Positions 3,516-31,754 of a DNA stretch of 34,711 nucleotides are shown here, one piece after another; positions within the stretch are counted from its first letter, which is position 1, and each line of letters starts with the position of its first letter. The position numbers and the translations under genes were made by a program. Origin of the DNA: Verrucomicrobiota bacterium (lineage in GTDB: Bacteria > Verrucomicrobiota > Verrucomicrobiia > Limisphaerales > UBA9464); the NCBI GenBank assembly GCA_947454705.1, contig CANGKZ010000052.1, forward strand, positions 1-34,711. Direction: 5' to 3'. The notes below the pieces were generated by a model. It had not been told where the DNA came from. It did not search any database and worked only from the letters and a program-made list of their open reading frames with translations.

Positions 3516-3695
3516 TCGGCTGTTTCCAATCCGTTGTTTCGGCTGCTCCCGATTTGGCACATCGCCCCCAATTCGCTGCCGCCGTGAAACGCGCCTCGAT
3601 GGTGGCGACCGCCCACTGACCAAGATCAAAGGGCTGGCTGCGGTCGGCTCGATCCGGTGGGTTGGGGGAAAAAATTTCTCACCAGGTTATTTCTT

Positions 3696-3917
3696 CTACT
3701 TCTTTTCCGAATCTCGCGAACAGGCGAATGCAACTCCACCAATAAATCCAGCGCCGGCCCCGATGGCTGATCCGCAAAGGCCGAAAAAAATAACCCCCAT
3801 GCCATCGAAAGACTCGTTTCGAATTCTCGCTGCTCCCGCCAGAAAAACAGCTCCAGCAAAGAAGCCGAAGGCAGCTCCCGACAGGAGACCCGCTACAATG
3901 TACGATAGCGCTTTCAT
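3696..3917 (-). CDS. Small glycine-rich membrane protein, unknown function
   Basis: 73 residues from ATG 3917 (MKALSYIVAGLLSGAAFGFF), with two hydrophobic, glycine/alanine-rich segments (about 4-30 and 43-65) and a short charged C-terminus (SRDSEKK). AGGTGATT, a good Shine-Dalgarno match, lies about 12 bases before this ATG. A GTG at 3932 would add five residues and overlap that ribosome-binding site, so ATG is preferred. I recognise no family; small glycine-zipper proteins look like this. Base composition is less GC-rich than the neighbours. It is followed 53 bases later by the end of the DUF1501 gene, whose transcript arrives from upstream on the same strand. Confidence 0.55.
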   Translation of the reverse strand: MKALSYIVAGLLSGAAFGFFAGAVFLAGAARIRNESFDGMGVIFFGLCGSAIGAGAGFIGGVAFACSRDSEKK

Positions 3918-3970
3918 AAGTACGTGAATCACCTAACCGTTGCTCTGCGGTTTCAAAAACGGTTCATCGC

Positions 3971-5389
<1,419 letters not shown>

Positions 5390-5426
5390 GGGGCTTTGAC
5401 AGAGTTAGGAAACGCTCCCGAAGAAC

Positions 5427-5523
5427 AACCACAGATGGACACGGATGAACACAGATTCTGGACCGCCCGAATCTGACGCAGGCGCGATGCCGAATCCGTG
5501 TTTATCTGTGTGCATCTGTGGTT
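5427..5523. repeat. Imperfect inverted repeat (ACCACAGATG family) between paired genes
   Basis: Left arm 5427-5457 (AACCACAGATGGACACGGAT...) and right arm 5493-5523 are near-perfect reverse complements (about 27 of 31 positions by eye), separated by 35 bases. Related octamer-like units (GATAAACGC / GCGTTTATC) recur at 12728-12783 and 21284-21311. It lies inside the PSD1-DUF1501 transcription unit and may act as a processing or attenuating hairpin. Confidence 0.8.
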
Positions 5524-5558
5524 TTGAGTTCAGCCGGGTCAGGTCGGGATGGTGTGTA

Positions 5559-8500
5559 TCATTCCCGATACACGAATTCGTTGGCGGCGAACAGCATCTG
5601 GCACCAGGCGGTCCAGGCGGCGGATTCGCTGCGGGAGGACATCGATCGGATGAATTCGAGGGCGCGGGCGGTTTCAGCGGCGGTCGGAGGACGGCCGAAG
5701 GCTTGTGCGTAGGCGCGGGCGATGCGGTCGGCGGGATTCGACGGGGCGGAGGCGGCAAGCTGCCTGGACCAGGATTGGGCCGATTCCTTCACCAACGGGC
5801 TGTTGAGAAAGAAGAGGGCCTGATGCGACACCACCGTGGGAATGCGCCGCGCGGTGCCCACGCTGGGATTGGCAAAATCGAAGAGCGTGAACACATCGAA
5901 CACCCGGTCGCGAACGATGGGGAGGTACACGGAGCGCCGCGTCGAGGTGGCCGACACCTTGTCCTCGGGGGCGTAGTCGTCGTTCTTCCAATTCACCAGA
6001 GTTCCCCCCATGGCGGCGTCGAGTCGACCCGAGACGGCGAGCAGCGCGTCGCGCACCATTTCGGCTTCGAGTCGTTGACGCGGGAAGTGCCACAGCAGGC
6101 GGTTCTCAGGATCGTGTTGCAGGGCGGTCTCGCGGACCGACGACGACACCGCACCCGCGCCGCCCTGTTTCCAAGCGTCGCTGGTGAGGAGCAGCCGGTG
6201 CATGCGCTTCACATCCCAGCCGGAGGCGCGGAATTGGGTGGCCAGCCAGTCGAGCAACTCCGGGTGCGTGGGGGCGTCGCCGCGAAGGCCGAAGTTGTCG
6301 GAGCTGCGGACGAGTCCGTCGCCGAAATGCGCCTGCCAGAGGCGGTTCACGATGACTCGCGAGGTCAGCGGATGCGTGTCGTCGGTGAGCCAGCGGGCGA
6401 GCTCCAAGCGTCCACTCCGATCAGGCGGCGGAGAGAGAGTGTTGCGTGCCGAGGCGACCCGGATGAATCCACGCGGGACCGGATCGCGGGCCAGATTCAG
6501 GTGGCTGCCCCGCACGTGGACGGGGAGATCGACCGGCTTGTCGTCCTCGACCGCGAGGGCGAGCGGGGCGACATCGCTGACCTCGGCCTTGGCGGCATCG
6601 CGCGTGCGCTCCAACGCGGTTAATTCGTCGCGCAGCGCTGCGGAAAACTCCGACCGCGGTTCCTTGGGAATTCCGAAGAGTTGCGGATTCTCCCAGAGGG
6701 TTTCGCGCGCTGTGGCGAACTCCAGCGGTTCGCGTTGTTCCGGGGCAATTTCATTGAATTCCCAACGGGCGACCACCGGCTCCTTCGCGGCCGTGGAGGG
6801 ATCGGTCCCCACGGCTTCGGGATGTTCGAAGTGATGCTTGAGTGCGTCGGCCGAAAGCGCACGGGAATACACCCGGGCTTCATCGAGTCGTCCCTTGAAA
6901 TGGATGAATCGGTCGGCGCGACGTCCCAGCACCAGCGGTCCCTGGCCCGGAACGCGGGGCCGATTCACAGCGGTTTCCCCTGCAGGAGTGCCGTCCACAA
7001 ACAGGCGCAGCATGCTGGAATCGTAGGTGAAGGCGAGGTGGTGCCACTTGCCCGGCTTGAGCAATCCGTCGGCGCTCCACACGGCGTACTCGTGCTCGCG
7101 TCCGCCGCCGATGTTGAGCATCGCCCCGGCGCGTCCGGCATCGAGCATCAGCGCGTAGTGACCTTCGACTTCCTCGTTGGCGTTCTTCGACACCAGCCAG
7201 CGCCTCGCATCGCCCGTCTTGGGAAACTCCGGCGCACGCACCCACACTTCCACCGTCAACTGGGCCGGCTCCAGCGGATCGCTGTGCGGCAATTCCAGGG
7301 AGTTTTTGCCCGTGGCTTCAAAGGCCCCGCCCACGCGACCCGGAACGGGCATGGGCATGGACTCGATGCGGCCGGGAATCGGCGCCGGCGGCCAAGCGGC
7401 GAACGCTTGGAGACGTATCGGATTTGATACCAACCGGTGAAGCTCACGGCTGACGGGGTCCGCTGCGGGGTCGCGATTCCAAAGGGTCTGGAGGCGGGTG
7501 AAGGCGTTGGTCCAGCGCGGGGTAAGACCCGCAGGACGGTTCGAGGAAGCCACGCCGGCGAGCAGGCGGGGAAACAGTTCCGAGGCTTCGCGATGGAGGA
7601 GATCGTGTCCGCGTTCTAGGGCGTCATCGACCGCCTTCTGCGCGGCGGCGGCGTGTGCCTTGGCGGCTTCGATTCGAGCGAGGTCGTCGGACGTGGCCAC
7701 GGGGCGCTCGTTGAATTTCGACACGAACCCGAGGTTGGCCATGGTGCGCGTGCTCTTGAAGATGCCAGCCAGGGCGTAGTAGTCGCGCGTGGGGATGGGG
7801 TCGAACTTGTGGTCGTGGCAACGGGCGCAGCCCACCGTGAGACCGAGGAACGCGCGGGTGGTGACATCGATCTGCTCATCCACCAGGTCCATGACCAATT
7901 TTGGTTTGTCCTGTTCGGCCAGCATTTTCGGGCCGAGCACGAGGAAGCCGGTGGCGGTCCAGCGGCGGAACACCTCGGCCTGCGGGACGCCGTTGGTGGG
8001 AAGCAGATCGCCGGCGAGTTGGTGGGTGATGAATTGGTCGAAGGGGAGATTCTCGTTGAAGGCGCGGATGACCCAATCCCGGTACCGCCAGGCGTTGGCC
8101 ATCACCTTGTTTTCATCCTGCCCGTTGGTGTCGGCATACCGCGCGAGGTCCAGCCACCAGCGTCCCCAGCGTTCGCCGTAGCGGGGCGATGCAAGCAGGC
8201 GGTCGATCATCCGGCCGAAGGGATCGGGTCCGGTGTCGGCAAGAAACGCCGCCACTTCCTCGGGCGTGGGGGGGAGTCCGGTCAGGTCGTAGGTGGCGCG
8301 GCGGATCAGGGTTCGACGATCCGCAGCGGGAGAGATCGCGAGCCCTTCCTGTTTCAGTCGCACCTGGAGGAAACGATCCACCGGATGCCCGCTCCGATCG
8401 GCTCCGGAAGCGGGGACGGGTGAATTGGCGATGGGTTGGAAGGCCCAATGGTTGGTGGCTGACTGGGCTTTTGTCGGGGCAGGAGTGGACGCGGACGCCG

Positions 8501-8885
8501 CTTCGTCGCGCGGATCCACAGCACCGGCGGCGATCCAGGCGGTGAAGTCAGCAATGACGGCATCGGGCAGACGTCCCTTGGGTGGCATTTGGAGATCGGC
8601 GTTGCGATATCCGATGGCATCGAGCAGGAGGCTGCGGGCGGTGTCGCCCGGGACGACGGCGGCGCGGGTATCGCCTCCATGCCGCAGGCCGCTGCGGGTG
8701 TCGAGCCGGAGCCCGCCCTTGAGCTTCTTGGATTCGGCGCTGTGGCATTCCTGGCAGTGCTCCACGAGGACGGGGCGGATCCGTTGCTCGAAGAACGCCG
8801 CATCGCCCGGGCTCGCCGCACGCGCCACCGCGCCCGCGAGGAGCAGGAACGCGAAGGTTGGAAGGATCCAGCGGCGCATGGGCAT
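5559..8885 (-). CDS. PSD1-type multidomain cytochrome (PSCyt1-PSCyt2-LamG-PSD1)
   Basis: 1108 residues, exported (signal peptide about 1-23, ending ARA). Domain order: PSCyt1 with haem-binding CQECH at 44-48; PSCyt2/DUF1549 about 145-380, containing CARCHDHKFD near 352-361; a LamG/concanavalin-like domain about 515-690; PSD1/DUF1553 about 800-1090 (TSRVIVNRLWQAHFGDGLV, ending in FAANEFVYRE). These planctomycete/verrucomicrobial proteins are thought to be periplasmic c-type cytochromes for degrading complex organic matter, often polysaccharides, but the reaction is unproven. LamG suggests a carbohydrate or cell-surface ligand. It forms a same-strand pair with the DUF1501 gene that follows. Start: MPMRR at 8885; ATG at 8879 is equally possible. 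Confidence 0.93.
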   Translation of the reverse strand: MPMRRWILPTFAFLLLAGAVARAASPGDAAFFEQRIRPVLVEHCQECHSAESKKLKGGLRLDTRSGLRHGGDTRAAVVPGDTARSLLLDAIGYRNADLQMPPKGRLPDAVIADFTAWIAAGAVDPRDEAASASTPAPTKAQSATNHWAFQPIANSPVPASGADRSGHPVDRFLQVRLKQEGLAISPAADRRTLIRRATYDLTGLPPTPEEVAAFLADTGPDPFGRMIDRLLASPRYGERWGRWWLDLARYADTNGQDENKVMANAWRYRDWVIRAFNENLPFDQFITHQLAGDLLPTNGVPQAEVFRRWTATGFLVLGPKMLAEQDKPKLVMDLVDEQIDVTTRAFLGLTVGCARCHDHKFDPIPTRDYYALAGIFKSTRTMANLGFVSKFNERPVATSDDLARIEAAKAHAAAAQKAVDDALERGHDLLHREASELFPRLLAGVASSNRPAGLTPRWTNAFTRLQTLWNRDPAADPVSRELHRLVSNPIRLQAFAAWPPAPIPGRIESMPMPVPGRVGGAFEATGKNSLELPHSDPLEPAQLTVEVWVRAPEFPKTGDARRWLVSKNANEEVEGHYALMLDAGRAGAMLNIGGGREHEYAVWSADGLLKPGKWHHLAFTYDSSMLRLFVDGTPAGETAVNRPRVPGQGPLVLGRRADRFIHFKGRLDEARVYSRALSADALKHHFEHPEAVGTDPSTAAKEPVVARWEFNEIAPEQREPLEFATARETLWENPQLFGIPKEPRSEFSAALRDELTALERTRDAAKAEVSDVAPLALAVEDDKPVDLPVHVRGSHLNLARDPVPRGFIRVASARNTLSPPPDRSGRLELARWLTDDTHPLTSRVIVNRLWQAHFGDGLVRSSDNFGLRGDAPTHPELLDWLATQFRASGWDVKRMHRLLLTSDAWKQGGAGAVSSSVRETALQHDPENRLLWHFPRQRLEAEMVRDALLAVSGRLDAAMGGTLVNWKNDDYAPEDKVSATSTRRSVYLPIVRDRVFDVFTLFDFANPSVGTARRIPTVVSHQALFFLNSPLVKESAQSWSRQLAASAPSNPADRIARAYAQAFGRPPTAAETARALEFIRSMSSRSESAAWTAWCQMLFAANEFVYRE

Positions 8886-8946
8886 TTCGGGCTACCTCCC
8901 GACGCTACCGGTGCGAGGCCCATTCAGAAAAGGAAGGACCGAGCAG

Positions 8947-14981: not shown

Positions 14982-15154
14982 AGTTCGCACTCCGGAATTG
15001 GGCGGGAGCCAGTTGCCGGAATGGGTTGAACACTCATGACCCGCCAGCGGGATGCCAAGATTCTTCCCACTCGGTTTGCGTCCGCGTTCGCGCCTAGCCT
15101 GAAAAGCAGCACTTTCGGTCGCAGAAACTTTGTGTAGCGTCCCTCGAACGAACT

Positions 15155-15604
15155 ATGAAAAAGCCCATCCTCCCCATTCTTGTGTCGCTCGGAATTCTCT
15201 GCGCCGCGCTCGGCTGCAAAAGGGAACCCGAGGTGTCGGGCACGATTGATCGTCTCAAGGCCGAGGCGAACCAGATCGCGGCCGAGCTGGACGACAAGAC
15301 GTTCGCCCAGCGGGCGGAATTCTCGGATCGGATGGAGAAGCACATTGCGTCGCTGAAGGTGGAGATCAACGAGCTGGAGGCGCGTGTTCAACAGACCAGC
15401 GGAACGGTGAAGGAAGAGTCCCTGGTGCGAATCAAGGAACTGCGCGCCAAGACGTCGCAGCTGGATACTCATCTGGAAGCCATCAAGCGCGCCTCGGAAT
15501 CCACCTGGGAATCGGTGAAGGCGGGTTCGAAGAAGGCGCTCTCGGAAGCCCAGGATCAGTTCAAGCAGATGCGCCAGAAGCTGAGTGAAAAGATCGCTCC
15601 TTGA
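15155..15604 (+). CDS. Coiled-coil lipoprotein, paralogue A
   Basis: 149 residues. Signal peptide MKKPILPILVSLGILCAALGC with lipobox AALGC, so Cys21 is probably lipidated and membrane-anchored. The mature part is highly charged and heptad-like (about 28-140), predicted coiled coil. The C-terminal part (SVKAGSKKALSEAQDQFKQM then RQKLSEKIAP) closely matches paralogue B at 25228-25704, including the final SEKIAP. I recognise no named family. It resembles small envelope lipoproteins with Lpp-like helices, which is a shape comparison only. Followed at once by a composite repeat. Confidence 0.85.
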   Translation: MKKPILPILVSLGILCAALGCKREPEVSGTIDRLKAEANQIAAELDDKTFAQRAEFSDRMEKHIASLKVEINELEARVQQTSGTVKEESLVRIKELRAKTSQLDTHLEAIKRASESTWESVKAGSKKALSEAQDQFKQMRQKLSEKIAP

Positions 15605-18654: not shown

Positions 18655-18960
18655 TCAGCCGCGGTTGCAGCCGCTGCGCCGGGTGATGAGGTAGCCGAGG
18701 ATGGCGCCGATCCCGAACGCCACGCCGATGGCCTGGTAGGGATTCTCGCGGACGACTTCATCGGCGACCTTCGCTCCGGCGATTGCCTTGTCGCGCGCCT
18801 GACCGCAGAGGTCGCGTCCGTTCTCGAGCGCCGCGGCGAGGCGTTTGCGGGCTTCGGTCACTTTGTCCCCGGCGATATCCGCCGTTGCCGAAACCAGCGC
18901 ACGGGCGTGTTCGGCGATTTGTTCCATTTCGGCGCTCATGGCTGCAGTGGGTTTTTCCAT
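18655..18960 (-). CDS. DUF883 (YqjD/ElaB-like) ribosome-tethering-type protein
   Basis: 101 residues. A long charged N-terminal helix (MEQIAEHARALVSATADIAG) leads to a C-terminal transmembrane segment preceded by the family motif VRENPYQAIGVAFGIGAILG and followed by a basic tail (ITRRSGCNRG). E. coli YqjD and ElaB are tail-anchored inner-membrane proteins of stationary phase; YqjD has been linked to ribosome binding. AAGGAA lies about 8 bases before the ATG, the best Shine-Dalgarno of this operon, as expected for its first gene. A GGGATTCACCCCAT box is about 85 bases upstream. Confidence 0.9.
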   Translation of the reverse strand: MEKPTAAMSAEMEQIAEHARALVSATADIAGDKVTEARKRLAAALENGRDLCGQARDKAIAGAKVADEVVRENPYQAIGVAFGIGAILGYLITRRSGCNRG

Positions 18961-19045
18961 AAAATGATTTCCTTCCCCGGGCCTCCCGGGACTCCGGGGC
19001 TTCCGAGGCGTTTACAACAGTGACCGTTCCCATCGTGGATTCGAA

Positions 19046-19059
19046 ATGGGGTGAATCCC
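19046..19059 (-). promoter_or_regulatory. CACCCCAT box in front of the DUF883 operon
   Basis: Reads GGGATTCACCCCAT on the minus strand, identical to the box at 24647-24660. It points toward the DUF883 gene, 85 bases before its start. It touches the final base of the preceding membrane-protein gene. Confidence 0.55.
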
Positions 19060-19604
19060 TACCGGTGATTTTGCGGGATAGAGAGCCGGGGCAGACGAAA
19101 GCGAGTTCGTGGGCGTGCCCGGGTTCGCGCCGTTCGTTGAACCGGGTTCAGGATCAGAAGGACCGTGACAAACCCCAGCGCGGCATAGGTCGCGAGCATC
19201 ATCACTCCGGTGAGCCGTCCTCCGAGTTGGGCAAATACGCCCCACTCAATTTTGATCCCGCGGGCGAGCGCGAGGCTGACGGCTGCAAACATTCCGCCCG
19301 TCATGAGAAGCAACCCGCTGGCTGCGCCCCGGCTTCGAATCCCGGCGAGGATCAGCCCGCCGGAAATCGCTTCGAGGGCTGGGAGAACCCACGCAATCCA
19401 GAGAATCGCCCCGTGCGGAAACACGCGCAGCGTCTCCAGCGTCCGTGCGAGCTCCTCGGAATCCCGAAGACGAATCAATCCCGCCACCAGGAACGCGCCT
19501 CCAACCAGCATTCGAAGGAGCCTTCGTCGCGGCGCGTTCCTTGAGAGATCGTGGTGGGTTCGGTAGGTGGATCGATATTTCCGATCCGGTGGATGGGCGG
19601 TCAT
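19059..19604 (-). CDS. MauE/DoxX-like four-helix membrane protein
   Basis: 181 residues with four hydrophobic segments (about 32-46, 65-88, 92-112, 121-147). The core resembles MauE/DoxX-type proteins: RRLLRMLVGGAFLVAGLIRL at the first helix and IAWVLPALEAISGGLILAGI at the second. MauE takes part in methylamine dehydrogenase maturation; most genome-neighbour relatives have no known role. The first 30 residues are basic and not obviously conserved, so an internal start such as ATG 19511 is possible. It is followed by 98 bases and then the DUF883 operon, with its own candidate box between them. A box pointing toward this gene is at 19731-19744. Confidence 0.75.
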   Translation of the reverse strand: MTAHPPDRKYRSTYRTHHDLSRNAPRRRLLRMLVGGAFLVAGLIRLRDSEELARTLETLRVFPHGAILWIAWVLPALEAISGGLILAGIRSRGAASGLLLMTGGMFAAVSLALARGIKIEWGVFAQLGGRLTGVMMLATYAALGFVTVLLILNPVQRTARTRARPRTRFRLPRLSIPQNHR

Positions 19605-19744: not shown

Positions 19745-19775
19745 GGATCCCCGTGTTTGCGGTCCAATTCGGTTC

Positions 19776-19789
19776 GGGTTTCACCCCAT
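19776..19789 (+). promoter_or_regulatory. CACCCCAT box facing the PilT-like gene
   Basis: Reads GGGTTTCACCCCAT, a perfect GGGT-N3-ACCC dyad, followed by GGAAG. It points to the PilT-like gene but is 335 bases from its start, much further than the other boxes. Confidence 0.45.
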
Positions 19790-20124
19790 GGAAGCGCGGG
19801 GGCTCGCTGTGAAACCGTTCGAGATGGGTTTCCTTCATCGATGCCAGCTGCGATCCAATCCCCCGGGGCTCGATGTCGACTCCGACTGGATGTCGGGCCG
19901 CTTGCAACGAACGGGGCGCTCCCTGGCGATGCTCATGCGGGTCGCATGGTGGTCCGAGGCTCAGCCCGTCCGGTTCATCCGAATCGTTCGCCGGCTGCCG
20001 CGCCTGCTCTTCAGCCGGTGCCTCACGCAGGGCGAGCCCACCGCCTCATTCCGTCCCGGTGGACTCGACTGATCCTGCTTCCTCACGTTCCGGTCAAATC
20101 ACCTCCGAGCTTCATTTCTCTTCC

Positions 20125-21426: not shown

Positions 21427-21924
21427 TCAGTCCGCAGCTTCGACGGCTTCCCGGCTCATCCGACCCAGCGCCTGAACGGTGCTGGGTTCGAGTTCGATCC
21501 GGGTCACGCGAAGCGCGAAGGAGATCCTCAGATCCCGGGAGTTCCACGGCTCGGCCACTTCTTGGAAATCAACGCTCAAGCGGCCCGTTTCCATCAGGTA
21601 CGATCTCAGCACGCTCTTTCGCGACGTGCTGAATCGCATCACGGAGTCGGCTCCAGAGTGGGAAATGGAGGAAGGGAAGACACGTGTCCCAATCTTGAAA
21701 CTGCTTTCTGCAGTGTCCATTTCCGACCGGGCCATGGTTAGACTCCAGAAGGAGAACGGAAACACGAACGTGTTCGACCGGAATTCTGGCGGGGAGAAAC
21801 TCCATTCGCGAACAAGGGTTCCGTCGCTTCCGGACTGATTAAACAGGACTGCAGCAGGAGTGCCTGCGGTGGATTGCATGCGGAATGAATTGGGCGGGGC
21901 AGGGGGCTCAACCGGCGTTTTCAT
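21427..21924 (-). CDS. Hypothetical protein overlapping the response-regulator gene
   Basis: 165 residues from ATG 21924, 17 bases inside the 3' end of the response-regulator gene, in another frame. That arrangement fits translational coupling as the last gene of the signalling operon. The sequence has no signal peptide or membrane helix. It looks beta-rich and polar (GSDGTLVREWSFSPPEFRSN; ETGRLSVDFQEVAEPWNSRD). The DRISFALRVTRIELEP-like stretch (seen as LRISFALRVTRIELEP) would suit a small ligand-binding domain, but I recognise no family. A competing frame (21569-21805) is also open, so a false prediction remains possible. Confidence 0.5.
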   Translation of the reverse strand: MKTPVEPPAPPNSFRMQSTAGTPAAVLFNQSGSDGTLVREWSFSPPEFRSNTFVFPFSFWSLTMARSEMDTAESSFKIGTRVFPSSISHSGADSVMRFSTSRKSVLRSYLMETGRLSVDFQEVAEPWNSRDLRISFALRVTRIELEPSTVQALGRMSREAVEAAD

Positions 21925-22627
21925 CGTCGGCCGGCATGGGCTCTGACTGAATGGTGAGCTGCACGCTGCTTTCGATAATGCCCGTCGCAATCGCGTAGCG
22001 GGTCAGACCGGCGGTGTCGTGGATATCGAGCTTCTTCATCAGGTGCTCGCGATGCTTCTCCACGGTCTTCATGCCGATCCCCAGTTCGGCCGCGGTCTCC
22101 TTGTTGGCCTTGCCTTCGGCGATCAGTTGCAGGACTTCCATCTCGCGTGAGGTGAGCAGCACGCGCTTTTGAATTCCCACCGGCCCACGGCGTGCACCGA
22201 ACGGATTCAGCCGGTCGAGGCGGCGCACGATGCTCGAACTGAAGTGAACCTTGCCCTGATGCACCGATCGGATCACGAGGCAGAGGTCGTGGGCGGAAGT
22301 CTGCTTCAATAGAAACCCGGACGCTCCCACCTCCATGGCGCTGCTCACATAGGCGTCATCGTTGTGGGCTGACAGAATGATTACTTTCGATTTAGGGAAG
22401 GCCTTCACGATCTGCCGGGTGGCCTCCAGGCCGTTGAGCAGCGGCATGGCGATATCCATCAGAATGATGTCGGGCCGGAGCGTTTCCGCGAGCCGGACCG
22501 CGCCGCGGCCATCCTGCGCCTCGCCCACGAGGATGAAGTCCGACTCGTATTCCAGGAGCCGGCGAAAGCCCTCGCGCACGACCATATGATCGTCGGCCAG
22601 CATCACGGTGATTTGGGAGTTCCGCAT
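21908..22627 (-). CDS. NarL/FixJ-type response regulator
   Basis: 239 residues. The receiver domain is about 6-122: acidic pocket Asp12-Asp13, phospho-acceptor Asp58 in DIILMDIAMP, Ser/Thr switch in VIILSAHNDD, conserved Lys in GFLLKQTSA. The LuxR/GerE helix-turn-helix is about 158-215 (LLTSREMEVLQLIAEGKANK then KTVEKHREHLMKKLDIHDTA). It is a cytoplasmic DNA-binding regulator phosphorylated by a HisKA_3 kinase, almost certainly the adjacent one: the ATG lies directly at the kinase stop (22627/22628). The C-terminus has about 20 extra polar residues. Plausible candidate for binding the CACCCCAT boxes, because regulators of this type bind short dyads; this is inference. Confidence 0.93.
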   Translation of the reverse strand: MRNSQITVMLADDHMVVREGFRRLLEYESDFILVGEAQDGRGAVRLAETLRPDIILMDIAMPLLNGLEATRQIVKAFPKSKVIILSAHNDDAYVSSAMEVGASGFLLKQTSAHDLCLVIRSVHQGKVHFSSSIVRRLDRLNPFGARRGPVGIQKRVLLTSREMEVLQLIAEGKANKETAAELGIGMKTVEKHREHLMKKLDIHDTAGLTRYAIATGIIESSVQLTIQSEPMPADDENAG

Positions 22628-23800
22628 TCAGGCCTTTTTGGTGGAAGTTCCGCGAGTGCTTTTGGAAGCCCGATTGGCCGGAATCGGAATGGGAATGCAG
22701 ACGCTCACGGTGGTTCCTTTTCCCGGGGAGGATTCGATCAAAAACGTTCCGCCCACCATTTCCACCCGCTCCCGCATTCCAATGAGCCCCAGACGGCGCC
22801 CCCGGTTCGCATGCATCACACTTGGGACATTGAAGGATTGCCCGTTGTCGTGGACATCCATGCAGGCGTGACCGTCTGCCCTGCGAAATGAGATCCCGAC
22901 ATGCGTCGCCTCAGCGTGCCGGGAGACATTGATCAACGCCTCCTGGGCCACCCGGAACAAGACGGTTTTTCGGACGGAATCCATCTGCTCGATCTCGGGA
23001 AACCCGTTGAGTCTCGCCCGGACTCCGGTGCGTTCGCTGAAGCTTTTGAGAAACGCGTGCAGCGCGGGGATCAGGCCGAGATCGTCGAGCACCGCCGGCC
23101 GAAGTTCCCGGGCGAAACGGTGCACGATCTGCACCGACTTCTCCACCAGCCGCTGGGTCTTGGTGATGTTGCCCGCGAGTCCCTTGGTGTTGACTGCGGC
23201 ATCCCGCTTCAGGGTTGCCAGGCGGACGTTGATCCCGGTCAGCGTCTGCGCAATGACGTCATGAAGCTCACGGCTGATCTTCTTCCGTTCGTCCTCGTGC
23301 GCAGAAATGATCTGGCGCGACAGGAGCCGCATCTGCCGCTGGAGCCGGTTCGATTCCTTGAGCAGGTCGGCGTAGTGGATCTTGCTCTGTTCCAGCGCGT
23401 GCTCCACGGCCTTGCGCTGGGCGATCTCCACGTTGAGTTCAAGATTCGATGCGGCGAGCTGGACGCTCCGGCGGCTGAGGATCTCCACGAACCGTTTGAG
23501 CTGCTTCATCGCCGACCGGGAATCGGGCGTCGACTCCTCCATGGGGGAGAGCGCTGCGGCGAAAAAGACGCCGGCCCGGTGAATCACCCCGGGTCGCTTC
23601 CGGATTGGCGTCGCGGGGAGCACTTCACCCACCAGGGCGCGCTCGTGGAAGCGGGCCAGGTCGGCGCTCAGCAGGCTCGACTCCAACGCGATGGCTCCGA
23701 ACTCGTGTGCTGGGGCGAGATGCTTTGGGTCGGGTTGGGCAAGGTACTCGCGCAACGCAGTGATGTAGCCACTGCAGAGGGGGGATTCGGGGTCGATCAT
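22628..23800 (-). CDS. Soluble HisKA_3-type sensor histidine kinase with RsbU_N-like N-terminus
   Basis: 390 residues, no membrane segment. Residues about 11-60 (YITALREYLAQPDPKHLAPA then HEFGAIALESSLLSADLARF) resemble the RsbU N-terminal (RsbU_N) helical domain, which in Bacillus binds the RsbT switch kinase. A coiled coil about 95-165 leads to the HisKA_3 dimerisation domain with phospho-acceptor His180 (SRELHDVIAQTLTGI). The HATPase_c has the N box (EALINVSRHAEATHV, Asn291), DNG at 318-320 and GLIGMRERVEMVGG at 338-351. Kinase for the adjacent NarL-type regulator. Its start overlaps the end of the upstream kinase-like gene by four bases (23797-23800), so three genes form one operon. Confidence 0.93.
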   Translation of the reverse strand: MIDPESPLCSGYITALREYLAQPDPKHLAPAHEFGAIALESSLLSADLARFHERALVGEVLPATPIRKRPGVIHRAGVFFAAALSPMEESTPDSRSAMKQLKRFVEILSRRSVQLAASNLELNVEIAQRKAVEHALEQSKIHYADLLKESNRLQRQMRLLSRQIISAHEDERKKISRELHDVIAQTLTGINVRLATLKRDAAVNTKGLAGNITKTQRLVEKSVQIVHRFARELRPAVLDDLGLIPALHAFLKSFSERTGVRARLNGFPEIEQMDSVRKTVLFRVAQEALINVSRHAEATHVGISFRRADGHACMDVHDNGQSFNVPSVMHANRGRRLGLIGMRERVEMVGGTFLIESSPGKGTTVSVCIPIPIPANRASKSTRGTSTKKA

Positions 23801-24537
23801 GGGCGTTTTAATGAGTTGGCCACAATGGTGAGCGATCGAGCCGACTGGCGAACCAGTTGTTGGGTCTGGTTGATCTCATTTCTAAACCCCGATGTGCTGT
23901 TGCGCGCCTCGTATTTGAGGGCACTGAGGCGGATACTGATCCCAAGCAGGTTTTGCGCGATCTCGTTCTGCAGCTTTCGACTCACGATCATCCGCTCCGC
24001 CTCCTGTTCCGTGAACACCCGCTGCGTGAGGCGTCGCAGGTCCATTTTCAACTCGCGGGAGGATTCCACCAGACAGGCGTATCGCTTCCCGCTTTCCTTC
24101 AACGCCCCCTCGGCATGGATTCGTTGCTTCAACCCCTGCTTCAGGGCCTTCCGGCTTTCCGCGAGCTCGCGATTCCTTGTGGTCAACGTGGCAGTTAGTT
24201 TCCCGAGCTCCGACCTGCATTGAACGGCGGCCTGATGCGTCTTAACCATCGGCAGAATCGCCTCGGAGAAGAACAGCTCACTTCGACGGGTCTGTCTCGA
24301 ACTGGCTCTGGGCTTTGGCTTCGAGTCCGCATTCGCCTTCGATTTCACGTTCCATACCTCCGCTCCCCCCAGGCTCCGCTCGTGGATTTGCGCCATCGCC
24401 AACAGGTGGATACCCAGGACGACCGCTTCGCCCCCGAGCCGCAGCGCCGGGCGTAGATCCGATCCCCGCGGCTGCGCCACGTACCGACGCACGGCAAGAC
24501 CGTATCGTTCCGCAAATTCCCCGACGTTGTGTTTCAT
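23797..24537 (-). CDS. Degenerate kinase-like protein: RsbU_N-like and DHp domains, no His, no ATPase
   Basis: 246 residues from ATG 24537. It is collinear with the first 240 residues of the next kinase. The N-terminal domain (YGLAVRRYVAQPRGSDLRPA, then QIHERSLGG at 50-58) matches that kinase's YITALREYLAQP...RFHERALVG. A coiled coil follows, then a dimerisation helix pair SRKLQNEIAQNLLGISIRLS at 187-206. The position of the phospho-acceptor His holds Gln190, the following Asp is Asn, and the protein ends at ...NSLKRP, before any ATP-binding domain. It therefore cannot autophosphorylate. Likely a modulator that heterodimerises with the kinase. First gene of the operon; a CACCCCAT box lies about 110 bases upstream. 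Longer in-frame upstream codons are not supported. Confidence 0.85.
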   Translation of the reverse strand: MKHNVGEFAERYGLAVRRYVAQPRGSDLRPALRLGGEAVVLGIHLLAMAQIHERSLGGAEVWNVKSKANADSKPKPRASSRQTRRSELFFSEAILPMVKTHQAAVQCRSELGKLTATLTTRNRELAESRKALKQGLKQRIHAEGALKESGKRYACLVESSRELKMDLRRLTQRVFTEQEAERMIVSRKLQNEIAQNLLGISIRLSALKYEARNSTSGFRNEINQTQQLVRQSARSLTIVANSLKRP

Positions 24538-24646
24538 GATGCTGCTGGCTTCCAGGGTTGTTGCGGTACGATCGTGGGATCCACAGTTCCCGCCCGATGG
24601 GGCCGCCCAACCATCCCGAGTAGATCCGATGGAGGATGGAGCGGCT

Positions 24647-24660
24647 ATGGGGTGAATCCC
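24647..24660 (-). promoter_or_regulatory. CACCCCAT box facing the signalling operon
   Basis: Reads GGGATTCACCCCAT on the minus strand. Here it forms part of a perfect dyad ATGGGG-N6-CCCCAT (24647-24664) within the divergent control region of the kinase-like gene and csbD-like gene. Confidence 0.55.
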
Positions 24661-24666
24661 CCATAC

Positions 24667-24816: not shown

Positions 24817-25020
24817 ATGACGAAACTTGAACTCAAGGGAGACTGGAACATCACCATGGGCAAACTGAAACAACGCTGGGCCCAGCTCACGCACGACGAC
24901 CTCCAGCTCGTCGAAGGCCAGCAGGAAGAACTTCTAGGGCGGATCCAAAAACGGACCGGAGAAACCCGGGAAGCCATCGTCAAGGCGATCCAGGAATCCA
25001 GCTCGACCTGCTGCCCCTAG
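24817..25020 (+). CDS. CsbD-family stress protein
   Basis: 67 residues. MTKLELKGDWNITMGKLKQR followed by WAQLTHDDLQLVEGQQEELL and GRIQKRTGETREAI is the complete CsbD pattern, a small cytoplasmic four-helix protein. In Bacillus csbD belongs to the general (sigma-B) stress regulon; its molecular role is unknown. The C-terminus ends SSSTCCP with two adjacent cysteines, which is unusual and could bind metal or be oxidised. The start matches the family's normal N-terminus, though an in-frame ATG at 24679 would read through the tetranucleotide repeat. It is divergent from the signalling operon. Confidence 0.9.
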   Translation: MTKLELKGDWNITMGKLKQRWAQLTHDDLQLVEGQQEELLGRIQKRTGETREAIVKAIQESSSTCCP

Positions 25021-25795: not shown

Positions 25796-25830
25796 TTTGC
25801 GTTTCGGCCCCTGGGGTTGCGCTTGGGTTC

Positions 25831-25844
25831 GGGTTACACCCCAT
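25831..25844 (+). promoter_or_regulatory. CACCCCAT box facing the BON gene
   Basis: Reads GGGTTACACCCCAT, a perfect GGGT-N3-ACCC dyad, followed by GGAG. 80 bases before the BON-gene start and just past the preceding terminator, where a promoter is expected. Confidence 0.55.
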
Positions 25845-25923
25845 GGAGAACGCGATACGCCCCAACTAAGGTTCTCATGGCGTCCAACGGACTTCCTCCA
25901 GCGGCCGCCTCATTCCCTGTCCC

Positions 25924-26703
25924 ATGAAACTTCTCTCGAATTCCCGTCTTTTTCTAAATCCCGTCCTCACCACCGTGCTGCTTCTCTCGGCCACCGGAGG
26001 CGTGGTTCGCGCTTCGGAAACCGATGACCGCATCGAGTCCGCAGCCTCGAAATCCTACGTGTTCAAGACCTACCTCAAGAACGATTCCATCAAGACCCGT
26101 TCCAAGGACGGCAAGGTGGTTCTCACAGGCACCGTCTCCGAGTCCTCCCACAAAACCCTGGCCGAAAACACCGTGGAAAAACTCCCAGGCGTCAAAAGCG
26201 TCGACAATCAACTGACCCTCAAGGGCGATCTTCCCGAGGAACACTCCGATTCCTGGATCGCACTCAAGGTGAAGACCGTCCTGCTCTTCCACCGGAACGT
26301 CAGTACCTCGAAGACCGAGGTCGATGTGAAGGATGGCGTGGTGACCCTTCGCGGCACCGCGCTGAACACTGCTCAGCGCGAGCTCACCGGCGAATACGCC
26401 AAGGACGTGGACCACGTGAAGGAAGTGAAAAACGAAATGACCATCGCCGAGAAGCCGGTCAAGACCGACGAGACCTTCAGCGACAAGGTTGACGACGCCT
26501 CCATCACCGCCCAGGTGAAGCTCACCCTGATGTCCCATCGCTCCACCAGTGCCCTCAAGACCGGGGTCGAGACCGTGGACGGCAGCGTCACCCTCACCGG
26601 CGAAGCCAAGAATTCGGCCGAGAAATCCCTCGTTACGAAACTCGTCTCCGACGTCCCGGGCGTCGTGTACGTGAACAACCGGATGACCGTCGCCGTGGAA
26701 TAA
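25924..26703 (+). CDS. Periplasmic triple-BON-domain protein
   Basis: 259 residues with a signal peptide (about 1-30, ...GGVVRA). Three BON domains follow at about 34-98, 108-175 and 190-257, each with the pattern DGxVxLxGTV...A...V..LPGVxxVxNxL: SKDGKVVLTGTVSESSHKTL, VKDGVVTLRGTALNTAQREL, VDGSVTLTGEAKNSAEKSLV. BON domains bind lipid surfaces; OsmY of E. coli, with two, is a periplasmic osmotic-stress chaperone. This is probably an OsmY-like envelope protein with an extra repeat. A candidate box lies 80 bases upstream and a terminator follows, so it is a single-gene unit. Confidence 0.92.
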   Translation: MKLLSNSRLFLNPVLTTVLLLSATGGVVRASETDDRIESAASKSYVFKTYLKNDSIKTRSKDGKVVLTGTVSESSHKTLAENTVEKLPGVKSVDNQLTLKGDLPEEHSDSWIALKVKTVLLFHRNVSTSKTEVDVKDGVVTLRGTALNTAQRELTGEYAKDVDHVKEVKNEMTIAEKPVKTDETFSDKVDDASITAQVKLTLMSHRSTSALKTGVETVDGSVTLTGEAKNSAEKSLVTKLVSDVPGVVYVNNRMTVAVE

Positions 26704-26803: not shown

Positions 26804-26953
26804 ATGCTCTACACCATCGCCGTCGTTCTTCTCATCCTGTGGATTCTGGGGCTCGTCACCAGCGCCACGATGGGCGGATTCATCCACATCCTTCTCGTAA
26901 TCGCCGTGGTCATGCTCCTCGTTCAATTCATCTCAGGGCGCAAAACCGGTTGA
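26804..26953 (+). CDS. Lmo0937/DUF5670-like small membrane protein
   Basis: 49 residues: MLYTIAVVLLILWILGLVTS then ATMGGFIHILLVIAVVMLLV and QFISGRKTG. Two transmembrane helices joined by a short turn with the GG(F)IHxLL pattern are typical of the lmo0937/DUF5670 family of tiny membrane proteins, common next to CsbD, BON and Dps genes. Function unknown. No strong Shine-Dalgarno is visible. The next gene follows 72 bases later on the same strand. Confidence 0.85.
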   Translation: MLYTIAVVLLILWILGLVTSATMGGFIHILLVIAVVMLLVQFISGRKTG

Positions 26954-27712: not shown

Positions 27713-30343
27713 TTGATGGCCGTTGGCTTTCCAGCCACGGTTTCCGCAATGAGCCCTCGCAGCAGCCAAAGCCCTTGCACTCCATGGCGATCCCATGGCG
27801 CGGGCGCCCGGCATCTGTTCCGCCCCATTTTTGGTGCGATCGCCGCCGGATGGTGGATGGCCACGGCCTCGCTGACCGCCGCTTCTTCCGCGGCGACCGC
27901 CACGAATCACTGGGCCTACCTGCCGATCACCAAGCCCGTCCCGCCCGCGCGTGTGGATCGTTCCCACACCGACATCGACCGCTTCATCGTCGCCCCGCTC
28001 AAGGCGCGCGGGCTCTCCCTCGCCCCGCAGATTTCCCGACGCGATTGGATCCGCCGCGCCACCTTTGATCTCACCGGGCTGCCGCCCTCCTGGGACGAAG
28101 TTCAGGATTTCCTCGCGGACAAAACCCCCACCGCCCGGGAGAAGGTGATCGATCGCCTCCTGAATTCCCCGCGCTACGGCGAACGCTGGGGACGCCACTG
28201 GCTCGACCTCGCCCGCTACGCCGACACCCACGGCGGAGCCGCCATCGGGTTCACCCGGTTTCCGTTTTCCTACACCTACCGCGACTACGTCATCCGCGCC
28301 TTCAACGCCGATCTGCCCTACGACCGCTTCGTCACCGAGCAGATTGCGGCCGACCAACTCGGCCTGAAGGACCAAGATCCCGCCCTCGCCGGGCTCGGGT
28401 TCCTCACCGTCGGCATGCAGTACCGAAATCGGCACGATGTCATCGACGACCAGATCGATGTCGTCACCCGCGGCCTGATGGGCCTCACCGTGGCGTGCGC
28501 CCGTTGCCACGATCACAAGTTCGATGCCATCTCCACGCGCGACTACTACTCCCTCTACGCCGCCTTCGCCGCCAGCCACGCGCCCGAGTCGCTGCCGGTG
28601 ATCGATTCCGAAGCCGGCACCGAGGCGCGTCGCGACTATCAAAAGGAACTCGCGCGCCTCCAAACGCGGCACGACGACATGGCCTCGGAGCACAACGAGG
28701 TCATGCGCGGTCGCCTGCGCAATCAGGTGGGACTGTACCTCCGCGAGATCGCCAAGGGCGCTCCGGAACAGGACATCTCCACCGAGTTTCTGTCGTACCG
28801 CACCGACGACATCCGCCCTCTGATTCTGAATCGTTGGCGCGATTACCTGATCGCGATGCCCGACACCGATCCGGTCTTTGGCCCCTGGGTCCGGCTCGCC
28901 CGGTTGCCGGCGGAAGGATTCGAAGGCGCGTGCACGAACCTGCTGACCACGCTTCGGAAGGAAAACGGCGACCCCGCCGCCCTCAAGAACCTGCACTCGC
29001 TCGCGGCCGAAGCGCCGCGATGGAATCCACGCGTGCTGGACGCCCTCGGGAGCAAGCCGCGCAAGTCCATGGTGGATGTGGCCGATGCCTACGGGGACCT
29101 CTTCGGTTCCGTGCATCAGGCATGGTTGAAGGCCCTCATGACCGCCTCCGCCGAGGCCGCCCCCGGGGCCGAGATCATCCCCGATGAAGATCCCCGGCAG
29201 CTCGAAATCAACAGCCCGGTGGTCCGCCAACTGCGACGCCATCTCTACGGCGCGAACACGCCCACCGCGGTTCCGGATTCCATTGCCACCAGCCTGTTGA
29301 ACCGCACCGTCAACGATTCGCTCGGCGGACGTCGCGGCGCCATTCACGAGCTGCACCTCAGCGCCGCAGGATCGCCCGCACGCGCCATGGTGCTGAAGGA
29401 ATCTGACGCGCCGCCCACGTACCACGTGTTGAAGCGCGGCAATCCGCTGGCCCGGGGCGCCGCCGTGCAGCCGCAGTTTTTGAGCGCGATCAATCGTGCG
29501 GGTTCGGAACCGTTTCCGGATGGCGCACGACGGCTCGGTCTGGCCCGCGCCGTGGTTTCGCTTGAGAATCCCCTCACGCGGCGGGTGCTGGTGAACTGGG
29601 TCTGGCAGCACCATTTCGGACAAGGGCTCGTCCGCACGCCCGACGACTGGGGCACGCGCGGCAATCGCCCCACACATCCTGAATTGCTCGATTATCTCGC
29701 CGCGACCTTTGCGTCCGACGGCGACTCCATCAAACGCCTCCACCGCCGGATCATGTTGTCGGCCGTGTACGCGCAGGGAGCCGTGGAGAATGAAAAGGCC
29801 CGCAACGTGGATCCCGACAACCAGCTCTGGTGGCGCATGCCCACCCGGCGACTCGAACTGGAAGCCATGCTCGACTCCATGCTCTACGCCTCGGGGGAAC
29901 TCGATCTGACCATGGGCGGCCGGCCGTTCGATCGACAGGCCCAGCCCGGCGTGCTGCGTCGGAGCGTGTATGCGTTTGTAAACCGCGACATCGTGTCGAA
30001 CCTCTCCAGCACCTTCGATGCGGCCAATCCCAGCTCCTGCACTGCGCGTCGGCCCGACACCACCGTTCCGCAGCAGGCGCTCTTCGCCCTGAACTCGGAA
30101 TTCGTCCAGGACCGCGCCAAAGCCCTCGCCGCGCTCACCGCCAAATCCGCGGGCGCGGATCCATCCCTTCGCATCCGACAGCTTTATCAACGCGTGTTCG
30201 CCCGCGAACCCCGCGCAGCCGAGCTCGAGCGGATTCTTCGATATATCCAAGGCGCCGACCCGGCGGAATCGGCCCGGGAAATTGCCTGGCAGCAGGTCGC
30301 GCACTCGCTCCTCGCGGCCAACGAATTCTCCTTCCTGGACTGA
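27713..30343 (+). CDS. PSD1 family protein (PSCyt2-PSD1), without N-terminal cytochrome domain
   Basis: Up to 876 residues; a start at ATG 27716 or 27749 is equally possible. The leader is long with a hydrophobic segment (about 39-60, FRPIFGAIAAGWWMATASLT), probably an export signal. PSCyt2/DUF1549 begins at ATNHWAYLPI (about 62) and includes SPRYGERWGRHWLDLARYAD and CARCHDHKFD at about 262-271. PSD1/DUF1553 spans about 605-860 (NPLTRRVLVNWVWQHHFGQG; ends SLLAANEFSFLD). Unlike the first PSD1 protein it lacks the CxxCH PSCyt1 and LamG domains. Exported protein of unknown reaction. It is followed after 13 bases by its DUF1501 partner, so they form an operon. Confidence 0.92.
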   Translation: MMAVGFPATVSAMSPRSSQSPCTPWRSHGAGARHLFRPIFGAIAAGWWMATASLTAASSAATATNHWAYLPITKPVPPARVDRSHTDIDRFIVAPLKARGLSLAPQISRRDWIRRATFDLTGLPPSWDEVQDFLADKTPTAREKVIDRLLNSPRYGERWGRHWLDLARYADTHGGAAIGFTRFPFSYTYRDYVIRAFNADLPYDRFVTEQIAADQLGLKDQDPALAGLGFLTVGMQYRNRHDVIDDQIDVVTRGLMGLTVACARCHDHKFDAISTRDYYSLYAAFAASHAPESLPVIDSEAGTEARRDYQKELARLQTRHDDMASEHNEVMRGRLRNQVGLYLREIAKGAPEQDISTEFLSYRTDDIRPLILNRWRDYLIAMPDTDPVFGPWVRLARLPAEGFEGACTNLLTTLRKENGDPAALKNLHSLAAEAPRWNPRVLDALGSKPRKSMVDVADAYGDLFGSVHQAWLKALMTASAEAAPGAEIIPDEDPRQLEINSPVVRQLRRHLYGANTPTAVPDSIATSLLNRTVNDSLGGRRGAIHELHLSAAGSPARAMVLKESDAPPTYHVLKRGNPLARGAAVQPQFLSAINRAGSEPFPDGARRLGLARAVVSLENPLTRRVLVNWVWQHHFGQGLVRTPDDWGTRGNRPTHPELLDYLAATFASDGDSIKRLHRRIMLSAVYAQGAVENEKARNVDPDNQLWWRMPTRRLELEAMLDSMLYASGELDLTMGGRPFDRQAQPGVLRRSVYAFVNRDIVSNLSSTFDAANPSSCTARRPDTTVPQQALFALNSEFVQDRAKALAALTAKSAGADPSLRIRQLYQRVFAREPRAAELERILRYIQGADPAESAREIAWQQVAHSLLAANEFSFLD

Positions 30344-30356
30344 ACTGGACTCCCCC

Positions 30357-31754
30357 ATGAACACCCCGCTTCCCAACTCGCGGCGTCAATTCCTCAAGCG
30401 ATGCGGCATGGGCTTCGGCTCGCTCGCGCTTGCGGATCTGGTCAGTCAGCGCGCCTTCGCCGGCGAAGTGCCCCTCTCGCCGCACTTCCCACCCACGGCC
30501 AAGCGCGTCATCCACGTGTTCCTCAACGGCGGCATGTCGCAGGTGGACACCTTCGACCCCAAGCCCGAGCTGACACGCCGCGCGGGGCAGATGCTGCCCT
30601 ACGAGAATTTGCAGACCGAACGAAAGACCGGCGTGGCCCTTCCGTCGCCGTTCACCTTCCGTCGGCACGGCCAGAGCGGCATCCCGATCAGCGACCTGTT
30701 TCCGCACTTGTCGCGCTGCGCCGATGATCTGGCTGTGATCCGGTCGATGCACGTCGAGCTGCCCAGCCATGAGCTGTCGTTGATGCTCATGAACACCGGC
30801 GATCAACGCCTGGTACGTCCCAGTTTTGGTTCCTGGCTCACCTGGGGCATGGGCTCTGAAAATCAGAACCTGCCCGCCTTTGTTGCCCTCTGTCCGGGCG
30901 GCATGCCCGTGGGCGGCGCGGCCAACTGGCGTTCCGCATTCCTGCCGGGTTCGTTTCAAGGAACCCACATCGACACCTCGCAGGCGGATCCCCGGAAGCT
31001 CATCGACCACATTCGCAACGCACGACTCGGCCCGCAGGATCAGCGGCGTCAATTCGACCTGCTGCGCGAGTTGAACGCCGAGCACCTGGCATCGCGCCCG
31101 GGCGAAGCGGCATTGGAATCCCGGATCAAATCCTTCGAGCTCGCCTATCGCATGCAAATGGAAGCGACCGACGCCTTTGACGTCGATCAGGAGCCGGAAC
31201 ACATCCGGAAGGCCTACGGGGAAGGCCCGCAAAATCGGCAATTGTTGATCGCGCGTCGGCTCGTGGAACGCGGCGTCCGGTTCGTCCAAACGTGGCATGG
31301 CAACATGCAGCCCTGGGACAGCCACTCCAACATCCGCGAGGAACACCGCAAGGTCGCCAACGAATGTGATCAAGGATTGGGTGCGTTGATCACTGATCTG
31401 AAGCAACGCGGGATGCTCGACAGCACGCTCATCCTTTGCAGCGGCGAATTCGGTCGCACGCCCTCTGTGGAAATGAGCCAGAACGGAGCGGGTGCGGCAC
31501 AGGGGCGCGACCACAACCACTGGGGATTCTCACTGTGGATGGCCGGCGGCGGGATCAAGGGCGGGACGATTTACGGTGCGACCGACGACTTCGGATTCCG
31601 CGCCGTGGAGAATCCGGTGTCGGTCCATGATCTCCACGCCACCATGCTGCAACTGCTCGGGTTCGATCACGAGCGCCTGACCTTCCGTCATGCCGGCCGC
31701 GATTTCCGTCTCACCGACGTCTACGGCAAAGTCGTCCGCGAAGTCATCGCTTAG
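30357..31754 (+). CDS. DUF1501 protein, Tat-exported
   Basis: 465 residues from ATG 30357. Twin-arginine signal NSRRQFLKRCGMGFGSLALA (7-26), then DUF1501: KRVIHVFLNGGMSQVDTFDP, FRRHGQSGIPISDLFPHLSR, GMGSENQNLPAFVAL, CSGEFGRTPS, GRDHNHWGFSLWMAGGGIKG and VHDLHATMLQLLGFDHERLT. It resembles the other DUF1501 protein (3971-5389) along its whole length and is the second gene of a PSD1-DUF1501 operon. A start further upstream would overlap the PSD1 gene and lacks the Tat context, so it is rejected. Enzymatic role unproven. Confidence 0.94.
   Translation: MNTPLPNSRRQFLKRCGMGFGSLALADLVSQRAFAGEVPLSPHFPPTAKRVIHVFLNGGMSQVDTFDPKPELTRRAGQMLPYENLQTERKTGVALPSPFTFRRHGQSGIPISDLFPHLSRCADDLAVIRSMHVELPSHELSLMLMNTGDQRLVRPSFGSWLTWGMGSENQNLPAFVALCPGGMPVGGAANWRSAFLPGSFQGTHIDTSQADPRKLIDHIRNARLGPQDQRRQFDLLRELNAEHLASRPGEAALESRIKSFELAYRMQMEATDAFDVDQEPEHIRKAYGEGPQNRQLLIARRLVERGVRFVQTWHGNMQPWDSHSNIREEHRKVANECDQGLGALITDLKQRGMLDSTLILCSGEFGRTPSVEMSQNGAGAAQGRDHNHWGFSLWMAGGGIKGGTIYGATDDFGFRAVENPVSVHDLHATMLQLLGFDHERLTFRHAGRDFRLTDVYGKVVREVIA

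Follow-up and report, generated by a model that had tools for sequence, protein, structure and literature searches.

The window analyzed here, a contig of 34,711 nucleotides from a Verrucomicrobiota bacterium, contains a two-component operon of three genes, which we call T, K and RR. The operon lies back to back with genes for a CsbD-like protein, a putative lipoprotein, a BON-domain protein and a DUF5670-family protein (Table 1). T encodes 246 amino acids, from an ATG at 24537 to a stop at 23797; this start is the one common to relatives, and an alternative longer frame, from 24690, is also present. The preliminary description had claimed that the three genes are coupled, and this was confirmed: T and K have 4 bases in common (23797-23800), and the stop of K (22628) directly abuts the start of RR (22627). 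In K, the Pfam matches to RsbU_N (27.2 bits, cut-off 25.5), HisKA_3 (51.5 bits) and HATPase_c (47.6 bits) all exceeded their cut-offs, and its best matches among solved structures were DesK and VraS. RR matched Response_reg (98.9 bits) and GerE (65.6 bits), the composition of a NarL/FixJ regulator.

Table 1. Genes of the T-K-RR operon, neighboring stress genes and putative operator sites, with positions in the window.
Feature	Position	Strand	Description
T	23797..24537	minus	Kinase paralogue without ATPase; RsbU_N-like domain, long coil, DHp helices
K	22628..23800	minus	Full HisKA_3 histidine kinase, RsbU_N-like N-terminus, 390 aa
RR	21908..22627	minus	NarL/GerE-type response regulator, 239 aa
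Putative operator, CTATGGGGTGAATCCCCCAT	24645..24664		Between the divergent T and CsbD genes
Putative operator, minus strand CCATGGGGTGTAACCCGAAC	25827..25846		Upstream of the BON gene
Candidate operator	19045..19061	plus	About 100 bp before a small minus-strand ORF, 18658-18960
Candidate operator	19774..19790	minus	Upstream of a T2SSE-type ATPase ORF
CsbD-like protein	24817..25020	plus	Sole CsbD match in own genome
Putative lipoprotein, 158 aa	25228..25704	plus	Family recurring beside T loci
Three-BON-domain, OsmY-like protein	25924..26703	plus	
DUF5670/lmo0937-family small membrane protein	26804..26953	plus	Sole match in own genome

T resembles the adjacent kinase through its N-terminal domain, coil and dimerization (DHp) helices, as had been proposed: residues 12-232 aligned with K at 34% identity (E=3e-28). 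In this alignment, His180-Asp181 of K correspond to Gln190-Asn191 of T, which bears out both substitutions claimed earlier. The acceptor His of the HisKA_3 kinase H-box is therefore absent in T, and Gln195 of the phosphatase motif is retained. T was also correctly described as stopping before the ATPase domain, since Pfam gave no HATPase_c match in T and the protein ends before any ATPase match. None of the listed Pfam families exceeded its cut-off in T. The HisKA_3 match was below threshold (19.4 bits, cut-off 24), yet this segment is homologous to the DHp of K, and the RsbU_N match likewise fell below (13.1 bits, cut-off 25.5). A PDB search with a profile of T relatives returned weak matches to the RsbU N-terminal domain (E 0.11-0.22) and to DesK (E 0.82), which stand among unrelated coiled coils of similar E. 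The predicted model of T has a single unbroken helix at residues 78-243, and a Foldseek search of this model against the PDB returned nothing at E<=0.001.

A scan of genome contigs with the single T protein as the query found no relative. T matched 59 of 194 relatives' genomes at 1e-5, full kinases included. With a profile, 88 of the 249 genomes of the order were matched at 1e-12, and 43 were counted as T-bearing, a number that includes a truncated (G082), a contig-end (G256) and a divergent (G044) case and excludes one of 135 aa (G249). Within the class, 43 of 384 genomes were matched at 1e-40, K included. The named loci with T belong to Limisphaerales/Pedosphaera (Verrucomicrobia subdivision 3), Chthoniobacterales, Prosthecobacter, Phragmitibacter, Verrucomicrobiaceae, Akkermansiaceae and Kiritimatiellae MAGs.

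At the loci inspected, short T frames lie directly ahead of full K frames and RR. The preliminary description had envisaged a fixed pseudokinase, kinase and regulator arrangement and had proposed a search for homologous three-gene neighborhoods in Verrucomicrobiota. Such a search found the pair across a wide range of the phylum. Of 69 distinct T-like ORFs, a set that takes in partial rows, 50 are immediately followed by a kinase frame, for which the start of K had to fall between -45 and +60 bases of T. The two frames overlap by 4 bases at 24 of these junctions and by 11 bases at 13, and the other 13 differ. In 35 of the 50 pairs, K is directly followed by an RR frame within the DNA stretch examined; among the remaining pairs, several end with the stretch or contig, and some showed no RR within these limits. 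T also occurs without an adjacent kinase at some loci (e.g., L124). At three loci (L093, L096 and L101, the same as L114, L128 and L125), T lies just before a kinase with a different, longer N-terminus, with a start option 22 bases on; here, the sensor part of the partner seems to have been swapped and T kept. At L119 (2188-3879), the T frame continues into what we take to be CheB-like methylesterase sequence, beside presumed CheR-like and PAS kinase frames.

The tree, the selection on the gene and the gene order together identify T as a maintained family, for which chance is not the explanation. T and K split at one branch of a tree of 27 T and 33 K rows (support 100/99). The split recurred with SH-aLRT 98 in a larger quick tree of 59 T and 61 K rows, from which the His column and the next one had been removed and before which 10 of the 69 T-like ORFs had been dropped as partial or edge rows, including a 92-aa edge piece of an Omnitrophota MAG and parts of kinases truncated where a contig ended. 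Because the T rows were labeled by a missing ATPase match, the T clade is a result and not a definition. The T and K subtrees have common groupings, such as the window with L034, or L038 with L039 and L041. Pairwise dN/dS was about 0.06-0.38 for T and about 0.10-0.38 for K (pairs with saturated dS left out), and T is under purifying selection like K. The single clade, this selection, the coupled starts and the maintained gene order uphold the view that T is not a dead remnant, and a one-off truncation or decay is ruled out by the clade, the selection and the recurring gene order. Some copies do look decayed: in L048, T (3476-4285) runs into response-regulator HTH sequence and K is missing, as in a decayed operon copy, L055 has no N-terminal domain, and L142 is broken in frame. 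However, 23 of the 26 curated T proteins measure 229-237 aa, and together with the observations above this refutes, for the family, the reading of T as a decaying duplicate without protein function, which is scarcely credible for window T as well.

The preliminary description called T histidine-less and ATPase-less. The second part defines the family, whereas the first does not hold throughout. Among 59 T proteins, the acceptor site is Gln in 37, His in 17, Arg in 2, and Lys, Val and Asn in 1 each, so the His is replaced in 42 proteins and kept in 17; it is kept in 50 of 50 kinases beside T. The following residue is Asp in 46 T proteins, Asn in 12 (window T included) and Glu in 1. At +5, counted from the His site, the Gln of the HisKA_3 phosphatase motif is present in 59 of 59 T proteins; since some named loci had been found with a pattern that contains this Gln, it was counted separately in a pattern-free subset, where it is present in 43 of 43 and the His in 10. 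The constant trait of T is thus the missing ATPase, with a variable His and an invariant phosphatase Gln. Over the T tree, the His is gained or lost at least 10 times, a count that half-open forks make rough. Ten changes suffice when gains are allowed, and also with gains only, whereas losses only would take 20; the root state of the tree is ambiguous, which leaves the direction of change ambiguous as well, and the His need not have been lost repeatedly.

Within the DHp helices, T and K diverge sharply at positions +2, +8, +15, +29, +31, +44, +45 and +47. Five positions have been named as regulator contacts in DesK and were mapped onto K by a gap-free alignment; +1, +5 and +12 are nearly as in K, and +8 and +47 are among the most divergent, so the docking of RR by T may differ from that by K. 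The mean Jensen-Shannon divergence between T and K was 0.06 in the DHp core, for which the position list was chosen after the residue data had been seen, compared with 0.24 over all positions. A matching core and a differing surface favor a dimer fold common to T and K in which the face toward the regulator has changed.

The genes around the operon point toward stress functions. The only CsbD match and the only DUF5670 match in the 5.4-Mb genome both lie at the T locus. At least one of the four neighboring gene families lies within 5.5 kb at 31 of 52 T loci versus 9 of 29 K-only loci, and two or more kinds at 16 of 52 versus 1 of 29, where the 52 T loci are those with 3 kb of upstream DNA. DUF5670 was over its cut-off in 37 of 43 T genomes versus 46 of 206 others (Fisher 4e-15, for genomes that are not independent), and in 18 of the 43 T genomes a DUF5670 match, below the cut-off in one case, lies no more than 6 kb from T, with about 0.15 expected by chance. 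CsbD was found in 11 of 39 sampled relatives (5 of 10 with T, 6 of 29 without) and is less tied to T than DUF5670. The window also holds a second copy of the 158-aa lipoprotein family at 15098-15601 (plus strand), and the gene pair at 27713-31754 (plus strand) has a diverged second copy of both genes at 3974-8891 (minus strand), toward the opposite end.

A 20-base inverted repeat is common to the upstream regions, with the consensus CTATGGGGTGTAACCCTACC at targets and often a more symmetric form, ATATGGGGTGAACACCCCAT, at T operons. Its EM score was 589 (41 starts), compared with 74 and 75 in two shuffled sets (12 starts each), and a site over 8 bits was present in 59 of 98 upstream regions. 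A motif trained on T upstream regions only recovered 32 of 34 T regions. At a threshold of 10 bits, it was also present in 18 of the 63 other target regions, versus 21 of 630 control stretches. It was found at BON (10 of 13), lipoprotein (6 of 20) and DUF5670 (2 of 24) genes and at none of 6 CsbD genes outside merged T regions. DUF5670 usually has no detected site of its own and may therefore be read from a neighboring promoter. The operator pattern matched 4 times within the window versus 0.15 expected, and 7 sites with at most 1 mismatch were found in the genome versus 1 for the control. The small ORF after the candidate operator at 19045 looks to us like an ElaB/DUF883-type stress protein. 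Next come a holin-superfamily protein and, at a greater distance, PRC-barrel and DUF2934 proteins; each of the three exceeded its Pfam cut-off. In L217, L233, L236 and L239, the genes after operator copies presumably encode OsmC-like, small membrane, CsbD and ferritin-like proteins.

The exact operator core occurs 275 times in 81 of 249 genomes, and the control pattern did not occur. It is present in 34 of 43 T genomes versus 47 of 206 others. With T absent from 47 of the 81 core-bearing genomes, T is dispensable for the regulon, which extends beyond the T-bearing genomes; in those without T, other regulators or kinases seem to take on its control. As the site is located before the T-K-RR operon, we infer that RR binds this putative operator. 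The sites at T operons and at BON and lipoprotein genes, together with the co-occurrence of T and DUF5670, make it probable that the T operon autoregulates and drives an envelope/general-stress regulon.

The best reading of T, judged from the shared dimerization region with its conserved core, is that of an inactive dimer partner of K. In its full form, in which T is a non-catalytic partner that acts as a brake or threshold-setter on an autoregulated stress operon, we give this proposal about an even chance. T would be produced with K and RR from one, probably autoregulated, operon and would pair with K through the N-terminal domain, the coil and the DHp four-helix bundle, a pairing suggested by the shared domains and the matching core. 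The T:K heterodimer would have one ATPase and, here, one phospho-acceptor His, and it would make less phosphorylated RR than the K:K dimer. It might still bind RR, with the retained phosphatase-motif Gln helping to remove phosphate. For HisKA_3 kinases, it is reported that the catalytic water is positioned by this Gln and that dephosphorylation does not require the His (PMC5231405; phosphatase motif likewise in PMC3510030). T would thus temper K, perhaps favoring phosphatase over kinase output, and a ligand of its own N-terminal domain might release the brake. With one ATPase per heterodimer and the kept Gln, T would most likely lower net phosphorylation. RR would drive the BON/OsmY-like and lipoprotein genes and the neighboring CsbD and DUF5670 stress genes, and autoregulation would turn the brake into feedback. 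The single T clade, the purifying selection, the coupled genes, the invariant +5 Gln, the match in the DHp core and the shared operator motif speak for this proposal. The divergence at +8 and +47, the Asn at the acidic motif residue (12 of 59), the His kept in 17 of 59, the absence of T from 47 of 81 operator-core genomes and the model with its unbroken helix and no PDB match speak against it.

T might instead act on its own, as a homodimeric, ATP-independent phosphatase or docking protein for phosphorylated RR that does not need K. The motif Gln in every T protein would suit this role, as would the loci where T has no adjacent kinase (L124) or a differently built one (L093, L096, L101). However, most T-like ORFs (50 of 69) directly precede a kinase frame, the regulator-contact positions +8 and +47 differ from K, and the acidic residue has become Asn in a fifth of the family (12 of 59), window T included, so we regard independent action as unlikely. 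A trans arrangement, in which T receives phosphate from the ATPase of K and hands it on to RR, has a precedent in the available account of FasB/FasC/FasA (PMC12675982) and could draw on the His of 17 T proteins. Against it, 42 of 59 T proteins, window T included, have no acceptor His, and all 50 kinases beside T keep their own. The chance of this route is slight, and a direct acceptor role of the FasC kind is ruled out for window T by Gln190.

The RsbU_N-like domain common to T and K raises the further idea of a decoy, in which T titrates a shared ligand or partner of this domain, such as an RsbT-like protein, and so sets the input of K. In 6 of 30 K-only loci (L061, L065, L068, L069, L072 and L201), what we take to be an RsbT-like GHKL gene lies near an RsbU_N-bearing kinase, on the kinase's strand, and in L061 a presumably PP2C-like ORF lies between the two. 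No RsbT-like gene was found beside T in the T loci of the same neighborhood set. RsbU_N-bearing kinases beside rsbT are known, to judge from the available parts of two reports (PMC12143880, PMC9237108). Nevertheless, the single RsbT-like query (E<=1e-10) had no match in the genome of the window and matched 7 of 96 relatives, G062 being the sole T-bearing one, and RsbT as a partner of T was not borne out. A decoy would also leave the conservation of T's DHp helices unexplained, and we consider it quite improbable.

The preliminary description held that this arrangement was not known as described. Its general kind is in print, as FasB/FasC, DivL and split kinases exemplify; searches of an open-access paper library turned up no account of the T-K-RR arrangement itself, an ATPase-less RsbU_N/DHp protein fixed at the head of a two-component operon that has an operator and a stress regulon of its own, and no listed title or abstract opening described a T-like family or this operator. 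In group A Streptococcus, the available text on FasB/FasC/FasA reports a heterodimer by two-hybrid, proposes one partner as a pseudokinase with a dispensable kinase domain and names GacS/RetS beside FasB/FasC as a kinase pair (PMC12675982). T-K-RR likewise comprises two adjacent kinase-like genes and one regulator. However, FasC has a kinase domain and a His246 reported there as likely phosphorylated (PMC12675982), whereas T has no ATPase at all and, here, no His, carries an RsbU_N-like domain and belongs to another phylum. In DivL of Caulobacter, as far as the accessible text goes, Tyr replaces the acceptor His and the kinase fold is reused to control a pathway via another kinase (PMC4211667). 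The acceptor His is replaced in window T as well, as in 42 of 59 T proteins, with 17 keeping it, but DivL keeps its CA domain, whereas T has no CA fold by Pfam and shares an operon with its kinase.

T also resembles the split kinases CheA3/CheA4 and the HATPase-less HisKA proteins in being a phosphotransfer part without an ATPase; available figures put the latter at 3.66% of HisKA proteins, with 1.7% of the total also keeping the phosphatase motif (PMC3591291). In CheA3/CheA4, the two halves complete one kinase, whereas K is complete alone, having by sequence both the acceptor His and the ATPase; T of the window has neither, and T usually has no His. The architecture of K is like that of RsbU_N-bearing kinases beside rsbT/stressosome genes, and a second, ATPase-less RsbU_N/DHp protein is not mentioned in the accessible parts of those reports (PMC12143880, PMC9237108). 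K and the DHp layout are also like those of the DesK/NarX-type HisKA_3 kinases, with which the DxxxQ phosphatase motif is common, but T differs from these in having no ATPase and, here, no His. New here are the inverted-repeat operator upstream of T operons, BON and lipoprotein genes and the co-occurrence of T and DUF5670 across 249 genomes.

Overall, we suggest, tentatively and with considerable doubt, that the ATPase was lost once, early in Verrucomicrobiota, and that T became a phosphatase-biased subunit that serves as a negative feedback arm of the general stress response. Such a subunit would be free to lose, and perhaps regain, the His many times, but never the phosphatase Gln, and the operator in front of its own operon would make the feedback built in. 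In T, a conserved example from nature, evolution has pulled apart the kinase, acceptor and phosphatase features of a histidine kinase inside a single operon. The operon comes with a likely regulon and with a candidate operator that could be built into a reporter, and it points to how Verrucomicrobiota may run their general stress response.
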